Assembly: GCA_033763895.1 (NCBI GenBank)
Contig: JANRJQ010000010.1
Coordinates: 190,146 to 254,145, forward strand
Direction of reading: 5' to 3'
DNA length: 64,000 nt
Source: Chloroherpetonaceae bacterium
GTDB taxonomy: Bacteria > Bacteroidota > Chlorobiia > Chlorobiales > Thermochlorobacteraceae
Position numbers and translations under genes: made by a program. Numbering within the stretch: the stretch's first letter is position 1; every line of letters begins with the position of its first letter. Of the stretch, positions 15,629 through 18,876 are shown one piece after another. The notes beneath the pieces were generated by a model that saw only the letters and a list, made by a program, of their open reading frames with translations, made no database searches and was not told the DNA's origin.

Positions 15629-17215
15629 TTACTTTGCGTAAGCTACAGAACGGGTTTCTCGTACGACTGTAATTTTAATTTGACCGGGGTATTGCACGGT
15701 TTGCATAATTCGATTTGCAATATCCTTAGCTAAGAATTCCGATTGGGTATCATTGACTTTTTCTCCTTCAACAATCACTCGAATTTCCCTCCCTGCTTGT
15801 AAGGCGTAAGTTTTCGTGACACCCGGAAATTGACGCGCAATTTCTTCAAGGCTTTCCAAACGTTTGATATACCCTTCTGCTGTGATGGCACCTCGCGCTC
15901 CGGGTCTTGCGCCTGAAATTACATTGGCAGCATCCACAATATCTGATATTGGATACTCTTTAGGGATTTCACCGTGATGAGAACCAATCGCATTCAAAAC
16001 AACTGGATGTTCCTTAAATTTCTTTAAGTATTCCATACCTGATAACGCATGTGATGTTTCCGGTTCATCAAGCATCTTTCCAATATCATGAAGTAATCCG
16101 GCGCGTTTAGCCAATTTTGAATCCAACTTCAACTCCGCGGCCATTAACCCGGCTAAGACGGCCACTTCATGAGAGTGCTTTAAAAGATTCTGCCCAAAAT
16201 AAGATCTGAATTTCATCTTCCCAATGAGCTTTATGATATCAGGGTGTAAGTTTGTAACTCCGAGCGTAGAAACTGTTTCTTCACCTGTTGAGATGATAAT
16301 TTCATCAATATCTTTTAAGGCGGCTTGATAGCTCTTTTCGATTGAACCGGGGTGAATAACGCCATCGGTTAATAGCCTTTGAAGTGTCAGTTTTGCGGTT
16401 TCTCTCCGAATCGGGTCGAAGCAAGAAAGAATCACAACCTCCGGGGTATCATCAACGATTATATCAACGCCGGTGGTATTTTCAAAAGCTTTGATGTTTC
16501 TGCCTTCTCGGCCAATGATTCTTCCTTTCAATTCATCATTTTGAAGATGAATCGTTGTGATCGCATTCTCAGCCGCTTGATCAAGCGAGGTTCGTTCAAT
16601 TGCCGATAGGATAACTTTCTCTGCAATCTTTCCGGAATTTTCTTGAGCTTCTTTTTGAATAAGTTCCAAAGAAGTTTGAGCCTCTTGTTTCGCCTTGGAA
16701 ATCATATTGTCAATAAGCATTGCTTTTGCATCATCGGCATTCAAGTTGCTAATGCTTTCGAGCCTTTTGTTTTGCTCTGCGATTAAATTCCCATACTCCA
16801 GAGTTTTTTGATCAAGAATTTGTGACTTGTTCTGTAAATCTTTTTGTTGTTGTTCTACCGCGCGTTCTCTTTTTTGAAGTTGCTCGGCTCTTTTATTAAG
16901 AAGTTCTTCTTTTGACTGTACTTGTTTTTGAAGTTGTGCCAATCGATTATTCTTTGCTTGAAGTTCAGACTCGAATTCGCGTTTTTTGCGTTTCCACTCT
17001 TCATTAACTTCGTCAAGTTTGGCCGTTGTCTGAGCTTGAGCCTCACGCTGAGCATCTTGTATAATTTGAACGGCCCGCTCTTCTGCTTCAAGGGTTTTTG
17101 ATGTCCCTAATCGATCAAGAAGAAATCGACCGATAAAACCTCCAGCCATTAAACCAAAAAAAAGAAACAATAGTGCAATGACCGCGTTTAGTGCAAAATT
17201 GATAGCAAAATCCAT
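15629..17215 (-). CDS. rny: Ribonuclease Y
   Basis: RNase Y (528 residues, typical ~520) is a membrane-anchored endoribonuclease that starts mRNA decay. In order it has an N-terminal membrane segment (about residues 5-27), a long coiled coil (about 40-200), a KH RNA-binding domain (GRIIGREGRNIKAFE, then GVDIIVDD) and an HD phosphohydrolase domain (LLKHSHEVAVLAG, RAGLLHDIGKM). It lies downstream of zapA and a structured RNA on the same strand. All expected catalytic HD residues are visible. Confidence 0.97.
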   Translation of the reverse strand: MDFAINFALNAVIALLFLFFGLMAGGFIGRFLLDRLGTSKTLEAEERAVQIIQDAQREAQAQTTAKLDEVNEEWKRKKREFESELQAKNNRLAQLQKQVQSKEELLNKRAEQLQKRERAVEQQQKDLQNKSQILDQKTLEYGNLIAEQNKRLESISNLNADDAKAMLIDNMISKAKQEAQTSLELIQKEAQENSGKIAEKVILSAIERTSLDQAAENAITTIHLQNDELKGRIIGREGRNIKAFENTTGVDIIVDDTPEVVILSCFDPIRRETAKLTLQRLLTDGVIHPGSIEKSYQAALKDIDEIIISTGEETVSTLGVTNLHPDIIKLIGKMKFRSYFGQNLLKHSHEVAVLAGLMAAELKLDSKLAKRAGLLHDIGKMLDEPETSHALSGMEYLKKFKEHPVVLNAIGSHHGEIPKEYPISDIVDAANVISGARPGARGAITAEGYIKRLESLEEIARQFPGVTKTYALQAGREIRVIVEGEKVNDTQSEFLAKDIANRIMQTVQYPGQIKITVVRETRSVAYAK

Positions 17216-17280: not shown

Positions 17281-17565
17281 AAAAAATAAAAAAAAATCCG
17301 CACGTAAAACCTCCGGGCTGTGTCAGGTCAAATGGATCCAGACCTAACACGGTGGGTGCGTCCTTCATATCTCATGCTTCCACTGAGGCGAGTATTTCCC
17401 ACTTCAAACGAATCCTCAATCTTCGTTGAAAAATAGCTCCCTGCCTGAATTAACCCTGAGGTGAAGTTAGGCCGAGGCCTGCGTTCGATACAAAGAGATG
17501 AGCTCCCTAAGGCTTAATTTATAGACCATTTTTCTTAAGCACAACCCGATGATTTTGGTGCGGAT
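17281..17565 (-). ncRNA. Structured RNA between zapA and rny (6S-like candidate)
   Basis: A ~270-nt gene-free segment folds back on itself. Its ends pair (GTGCGGAT 17558-17565 with ATCCGCAC 17296-17303), continued by a 9-bp helix (17540-17548 with 17314-17322). Inside are a 10-bp hairpin (17320-17329/17341-17350), a 6-bp hairpin (17407-17412/17422-17427) and a GCTTAA/TTAAGC hairpin (17512-17517/17535-17540). Two of these helices contain positions that are G-U pairs on the minus strand but A-C mismatches on plus, so minus is the sense strand. The final stem is followed by a U-rich run, as at an intrinsic terminator. It lacks RNase P, tmRNA and SRP RNA signatures. 6S RNA is the leading guess from its position after zapA, but it is longer than usual. 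Confidence 0.7.
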
Positions 17566-17652
17566 AAACGCGCAAAAATCGTGCTTCTTTACCATACTTA
17601 TGGTAAAGGAAAGTTTTCAAAGAACTAAATTATTAAGAAAAAAATATAGATT

Positions 17653-17934
17653 TCAATTGCCTTTGTTCAAATAACTTAAGGAATTGTCCAATAAGGAATT
17701 AAACTCTTTCAAAGTAGATTCATTCTCAGTAAAAAGTTCGGTGTAAACCAAATTTTTTTCAGCGAGATGAAGAGCCACTAAAAAGGCTATTTTTTGAAGA
17801 TTGAGATCAGGCATATGTTGTCGATAATCCTGAATTAATCGATTGACCTCACGAGCTGCCTGTTCTGTCTTAAGTTTTTCTTCAGTTCGAAGAGGAAACT
17901 CTTCATTTGCAATCTTTATTCGTATCGATTCCAA
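17653..17934 (-). CDS. zapA: Cell division protein ZapA
   Basis: This 93-residue product matches ZapA, the small FtsZ-ring-associated protein that bundles FtsZ filaments. The N-terminal half (SIRIKIANEEFPLRTEE, then AAREVNRLIQDYR) is the beta-rich head, and the C-terminal half is an amphipathic helix for dimerisation (FLVALHLAEKNL). It follows the coiled-coil gene by 24 bases and precedes the structured RNA. The gene order pheT, coiled-coil gene, zapA on one strand supports the identification. Confidence 0.9.
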   Translation of the reverse strand: MESIRIKIANEEFPLRTEEKLKTEQAAREVNRLIQDYRQHMPDLNLQKIAFLVALHLAEKNLVYTELFTENESTLKEFNSLLDNSLSYLNKGN

Positions 17935-17958: not shown

Positions 17959-18876
17959 CTAACTTTCCTCTAACTCATCCTCTATTGTGGCTAAAATCAT
18001 CCTTAATTGATTCTGCAAAGTCAATTTTTCATCAAGACTAAGAAAACAACCTGACTCTAATTTTCTTAATAATTTCTCATTTTGCTCAATCAAGAACATC
18101 CTTTCTGATTCAAGTGAATTTTCTCGATTCCTAATCTGAAGAATTTCATTCTGCAAACTAAGAATTATTTCTGTTTCTTGGTCCTTAACACTTTTGAAGG
18201 AAGAAATTTCTTTTTCCAACTTTAAGATTTTTTCCTTGAGTGCAAGCTCATTTCCAATAAATAACGATTCTTTTTCAGAAAGCTTTTGGCTCAAAAAATC
18301 AGAAGTTTCACGAGTTTTTTGATACTGAGTCTCTAAAAAATGCTTTTCTTGTAACGCTTTACCTAGATCATTAATCGCAATCTTCAATTCAACCTTTGTA
18401 TTATTTAGTTCTTCTTCAGTAGCGTTAAGGAGCCGTGAATATTCAATTGTTTTTTGGTTTATTTCTTTCTTAAGAGAATCTATCGTTGCATTTAAATCAG
18501 AATTAAGAATTTCAGCTGATTTTAGGAAGTTCGACTTTTTTTCAAGTTCATCGGAAGTATCACTTAATAAATGTTCATTGATTGAAAGTTGTTCCTCAAG
18601 AACTTTTACTTTTTGATTTGTCGAGATTTCTAATTGAAAATAATCTTCGCGTAAACCAGCAAACTTTACTTTAAGTTCTTCAAGTTCTTTACGAAGAGTG
18701 TCTCTTTCGATTTTCCAAGCAACTGTATTCTTGGTAAGTTCCTCCTGAATTGAAATTGCAATACCAGAAAGTTTAATCAATTTTGATCTTACGGAGTTTT
18801 TGAGTGAAGTTGATTCTTCAAATAAACTAATCTCCGTTGTTTCAAAATTTTGATGTGAAAGAGATGATTTCTTCAT
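17959..18876 (-). CDS. Coiled-coil protein between pheT and zapA
   Basis: This is a 305-residue protein made almost entirely of heptad-rich coiled coil (about residues 25-300), very rich in Glu, Lys, Leu and Ser, with no signal peptide, membrane segment or catalytic motif. I do not recognise a named family. Its position between pheT and zapA, 24 bases before zapA, suggests a structural partner in division or envelope organisation; that is inference from context. The only cysteine is near the C-terminus. Confidence 0.82.
   Translation of the reverse strand: MKKSSLSHQNFETTEISLFEESTSLKNSVRSKLIKLSGIAISIQEELTKNTVAWKIERDTLRKELEELKVKFAGLREDYFQLEISTNQKVKVLEEQLSINEHLLSDTSDELEKKSNFLKSAEILNSDLNATIDSLKKEINQKTIEYSRLLNATEEELNNTKVELKIAINDLGKALQEKHFLETQYQKTRETSDFLSQKLSEKESLFIGNELALKEKILKLEKEISSFKSVKDQETEIILSLQNEILQIRNRENSLESERMFLIEQNEKLLRKLESGCFLSLDEKLTLQNQLRMILATIEDELEES

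Follow-up and report, generated by a model that had tools for sequence, protein, structure and literature searches.

The structured element between zapA and rny in the window, i.e., the whole 64,000-nucleotide stretch that was analysed, is almost certainly the chromosomal 6S RNA gene (ssrS) of a member of the Chlorobiales, transcribed from the minus strand. 6S RNA is a small RNA which shuts down RNA polymerase by mimicking an open promoter. The element is homologous to the 6S family and has the 6S architecture; apart from its divergence it is a regular 6S RNA, which belongs to a known class and not to a new one. The names zapA and rny were proposed for the flanking reading frames in a preliminary description made from the sequence alone, and as predicted identities they fit the synteny with relatives.

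With the 3' U-run counted in, the gene is about 270-280 nt long. The minus strand folds with -90.3 kcal/mol (z -3.3; none of 200 shuffles was equally good), and since the plus strand also folds strongly (z -3.05), the folding energy by itself cannot decide between the strands. Both the strand and the reality of the RNA were settled by a covariance model (R1), for which 20 relatives but not the window were used, and which matched the minus strand at 17566-17286 over model positions 1-242 with 154.4 bits (E 8.6e-48). E-values from the search tool are rough, and the gap between 154.4 bits and the runner-up match at 11.7 bits is very large. The earlier claim that zapA and rny share their strand with a structured RNA is borne out by this match. 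No open reading frame of 60 aa or more was found on the minus strand of the same interval. A transcript from the plus strand folds well on its own, yet it was discarded, the R1 match and the U-run both being on the minus strand. Of 61 genomes searched at the DNA level (60 relatives plus the window's own), 27 had a match, the own genome among them, and almost every Chlorobiales genome searched carries the RNA at this site. All fetched loci adjoin rny, and zapA was also recognised by tblastn in most of them. The closing stem is followed by a U-run, from which 70 nt remain to rny in the window; the U-run is present in all relatives, and the spacing between the RNA and rny varies among them. A scan for a local terminator hairpin at the U-rich tail found none. 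Just upstream of zapA (17959-18876, minus strand), a 305-aa protein is encoded which is rich in Glu and Lys and looks like a coiled coil; a ZapB-like relation to cell division is posed here as a question only.

The secondary structure was derived from mapping of the Rfam 6S model RF00013, extended by eye and then tested. It consists of a closing arm (P1, P2 and P3), an open bubble and an apical arm (P4, P5 and P6), with the coordinates given in Table 1. Complementary ends, an adjoining closing helix and a U-rich stretch 3' of the terminal stem on the minus strand had all been noticed in the preliminary description, and they reappear here as P1, P2 and the U-rich tail. P2 contains one G-U pair, where the plus strand would have A-C. 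The view that the layout does not fit classical 6S RNA did not hold, as closing arm, central bubble and apical arm were all found. The unusual length of the RNA is due to the variable apical extension, and this extension together with the alternative 3'-strand hairpin accounts for the extra length and internal hairpins.

Table 1. Position of the 6S RNA gene, its structural elements and its neighbours in the window.
Feature	Position	Strand	Basis or remark
6S RNA gene (ssrS), predicted ends	17286..17566	minus	hold-out covariance model match, conserved locus
zapA, cell-division protein	17653..17934	minus	ORF; upstream neighbour, likewise in relatives
rny, RNase Y	15629..17215	minus	ORF; downstream neighbour, likewise in relatives
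P1, closing helix, CCGCAC / GUGCGG	17558..17563 / 17298..17303	minus	intact in nearly all loci
P2, GGGUUGUG / CACAGCCC	17540..17547 / 17315..17322	minus	covariation
P3, beside central bubble, AAAUGG / CCAUUU	17526..17531 / 17330..17335	minus	pairing varies in relatives
Central bubble, 5' side, 18 nt	17508..17525	minus	unpaired stretch separating P3 from P4
Central bubble, 3' side, 18 nt	17336..17353	minus	unpaired, 6S layout
P4, GGGAGC / GCACCC	17502..17507 / 17354..17359	minus	near-invariant 6S core block
P5, UUUGUAUC / GAUAUGAA	17487..17494 / 17364..17371	minus	covarying helix
P6, 5' side, GCAGGCC	17476..17482	minus	on RF00013 consensus in locus L032; invariant in the Chlorobiales alignment (A1)
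P6, 3' side, GUGGAAGC	17376..17383	minus	conserved block
Variable apical extension, 92 nt	17384..17475	minus	length and sequence differ in every relative
Alternative 3'-strand hairpin, UGUUAGGUC...GACCUGACA	17321..17349	minus	free minimum-energy fold; excludes P3
U-rich tail, likely terminator tract	17285..17297	minus	directly 3' of P1; sequence

Covariation among relatives, which the preliminary description had named as a check, was found at both depths of comparison. In a MAFFT alignment of 25 Chlorobiales (A1), 88.6% of the cells pair, double changes occur in 14 of 40 pairs, and the covariation score is 0.156 versus 0.038-0.071 in controls slid by 1-3 columns. The alignment across the phylum (A3), fitted to the model, had 39 rows including one spurious reverse-strand match, which left 38 loci; here 93.2% of the cells pair, double compensatory changes occur in 32 of 39 pairs, and the score reaches 0.386 versus 0.041-0.074 in the slid controls. 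Double changes in P1 were found in distant loci, and P2 showed them at all seven pairs in A3. The clearest covariation was that of P3, which is short in the window (6 pairs): AAAUGG/CCAUUU of the window corresponds to AAAGAAUC/GAUUCUUU in the window's family, to AGAAGAACC/GGUUCUUCU in L018 from a second family of the order, and to AUAGAUCC/GGAUCUAU and GAAAAACU/GGUUUUUC in more distant loci. RNAalifold on a sequence-only MAFFT alignment gave a poor structure, with just P1 and fragments of the core recovered; the probable cause is an apical region that resists alignment.

In the free fold of the window, the 3' strand of P3 sits in the loop of the hairpin UGUUAGGUC/GACCUGACA, and the energies of the two states differ by 0.7 kcal/mol (-90.3 kcal/mol for the free fold, -89.6 kcal/mol with P3 enforced). 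Strong hairpins occur at this place in several relatives (e.g., L018, L097, L106 and L110-L113), and in Chlorobiaceae-like loci they are weak. In other 6S RNAs, synthesis of the product RNA (pRNA) unwinds P3, upon which the hairpin can form. By analogy, and from the modelled energies, we infer that the balance between hairpin and P3 would be the arrangement expected for release triggered by a product RNA, with the 5' strand of P3 as the likely pRNA template. Following known 6S biology, the folded RNA would imitate a melted promoter, in which the two duplexes would be represented by the closing arm and the apical arm and the open stretch between them by the 18/18-nt bubble, and it would occupy the RNA polymerase carrying the housekeeping sigma factor once growth stops. 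When NTPs become available again, the polymerase would copy the 5' strand of the bubble and then the 5' strand of P3 into a short product RNA; the freed 3' strand of P3 could then fold into the local hairpin, upon which the polymerase would be released. The closing arm and the U-run probably also terminate transcription ahead of rny.

The assignment to 6S RNA was examined with the curated families of Rfam. The gathering cut-off of RF00013, 46.4 bits, is a curated detection threshold and not a biological feature. In the window RF00013 gave a partial match of 11.2 bits (E 7.5), below the cut-off, and this score means nothing by itself. The cut-off was reached in none of the Chlorobiales loci tested, the orthologues scoring 24-42 bits, and the Rfam scan of the window and 20 Chlorobiales loci found no family at its cut-off. 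Matches to cow-rumen-4, RnaG and a snoRNA in the scan of the window were dismissed as chance matches. The same scan gave no match to RNase P, tmRNA or SRP RNA, in line with what had been read from the sequence, and the tmRNA of the genome lies on another contig (G000:C7). When ten whole genomes were searched, the own and nine relatives, 7 of the 9 relatives had an end-to-end RF00013 alignment at the orthologous locus, with 24-31 bits, and in each of those 7 this was the best match genome-wide. In the residue alignment of L032, the blocks GGGAGC, GCAGGCC, GUGGAAGC and GCACCCA fall on the 6S consensus, in this order. Among 118 genomes of the phylum, RF00013 exceeded the cut-off in G091 from another family (C35:26059-26282, 47.1 bits), where R1 matched the same contig at 26060-26289 with 99 bits. 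Homology to recognised 6S RNAs is thereby given, R1 joining the window (154 bits) to the RF00013-positive RNA of G091 (99 bits). Sub-threshold RF00013 matches were found where R1 matches in four more distant genomes as well (G211, G064, G190 and G205). In the literature covered on 6S RNA in Chlorobi and green sulfur bacteria, a 6S RNA from Chlorobi was nowhere reported; an earlier listing in the survey of Wehner et al. (2014) is possible.

The partner of such an RNA does not follow from its shape. According to PMC9130861, Ms1 of Actinobacteria, likened here by description, has a 6S-like overall shape, but its polymerase partner is the core enzyme lacking the primary sigma factor, and an RNA of the same shape with another partner could be imagined here too. 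We consider this very improbable, since the sequence blocks match RF00013 itself and the arrangement of bubble and P3 is kept; in addition, a 6S RNA with two classes of pRNA has been reported from Bacteroides thetaiotaomicron (PMC7366714). This organism belongs to the same GTDB phylum and, likened by description, provides evidence for product RNAs. Compared with the RF00013 systems (E. coli ssrS etc.), the 6S RNA of Chlorobiales has the same order of core blocks, the closing arm, the central bubble, the apical arm and a P3-like helix at the bubble, whereas it stays below the Rfam cut-off, is longer (about 270 nt) and has rny as downstream gene. A link between zapA and 6S RNA is also known in beta- and gamma-proteobacteria (PMC7641849).

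The second 6S family of Rfam, 6S-Flavo (RF01685), exceeded its cut-off in 13 genomes, all from a single family (f15) which we take to be Flavobacteriaceae. At each of the six loci inspected it is found just upstream of rny, as is the Chlorobiales RNA, and zapA was detected weakly in three. Both Rfam families had been named as first candidates in the preliminary description: RF00013 turned out sub-threshold in the window and end-to-end in most of the relatives searched, and RF01685 had no match in any Chlorobiales genome. R1 gave weak matches or none in the Flavobacteriaceae loci, and so these loci are linked by position only; the Chlorobiales RNA and 6S-Flavo represent the same locus but a different subfamily. 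The identification as 6S RNA follows from the convergence of homology, through the bridge of RF00013 and R1, and of position, through the 6S-Flavo locus. The preliminary description had left a divergent 6S RNA and an undescribed class as equal options, of which the former stood and the latter fell as an equal to it on account of the RF00013 bridge. An unrelated RNA placed between zapA and rny by chance would agree with the lack of any Rfam family at cut-off in the window and the 20 Chlorobiales loci, but we give it practically no credence against the end-to-end RF00013 alignments at orthologous loci, the RNA of G091 recognised by both models and the locus shared with RF01685.

In the phylum as a whole, R1 matched 147 of 297 genomes, representing 66 of 140 genera, and 19 of the 20 distant loci that were fetched adjoin rny. 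One distant locus, L105 in G061, was matched by R1 with 70.9 bits, and neither rny nor zapA could be recognised within about 2.3 kb of it; we regard it as a 6S RNA that left the usual locus. A cis-acting leader of rny, e.g., a riboswitch or an autoregulatory site, instead of a free RNA would suit an RNA that immediately precedes rny on its strand in a widely kept neighbour order, but its probability is negligible, given that closing stem and U-run end ahead of rny at a spacing which varies in relatives, that the RNA matches a known trans-acting family, and that the copy at L105 has no rny nearby.

Several further signals were observed upstream of the 6S RNA. A boxA-like motif precedes the RNA by 30-60 nt in most loci from the order's three non-Chlorobiaceae families (the window, L002-L008, L011 and L012) and fits 10-12 of 12 consensus positions; it reads AGTTCTTTGAAAAC in the window (17613-17626, minus strand) and TGCTCTTTGACAAT in L005, and it is absent from Chlorobiaceae-like loci. 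A sigma-70-like promoter match in the window (17629-17656, minus strand; TTGAAA, 16 nt, AATAAT; 10/12) would start transcription near this motif; sigma-70-like matches in the region numbered 3 versus 1.0 expected. In the Chlorobiaceae-like loci (L009, L010, L013-L017 and L019-L027), TTACATT is conserved just past the zapA stop codon, about 20-27 nt ahead of the RNA start, and is possibly the -7/-10 box of the 6S promoter. A 10-bp palindrome, CTTTACCATA/TATGGTAAAG, lies between zapA and the 6S RNA in the window (17587-17608), and none was seen by eye in the intergenic sequences of relatives. BoxA occurs in rRNA leaders. The Chlorobiales 6S precursor might start with boxA and undergo antitermination of the rRNA type, by Nus factors, with read-through into rny; we put this forward as an unlikely, tentative reading, as it is based on the motif of the non-Chlorobiaceae loci and the conserved order of neighbours. 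If this reading is true, the sequestration of polymerase and the level of RNase Y would be coupled. Among the papers searched, none mentions boxA, NusB and 6S RNA together.

None of the Chlorobiales 6S loci tested is picked up by Rfam, nor are most of the other Bacteroidota loci examined, and this gap is now filled. A gene order with 6S RNA between zapA and rny, the latter downstream, is widespread; it recalls the link of zapA and ssrS in proteobacteria, and it makes annotation of 6S RNA by position feasible.
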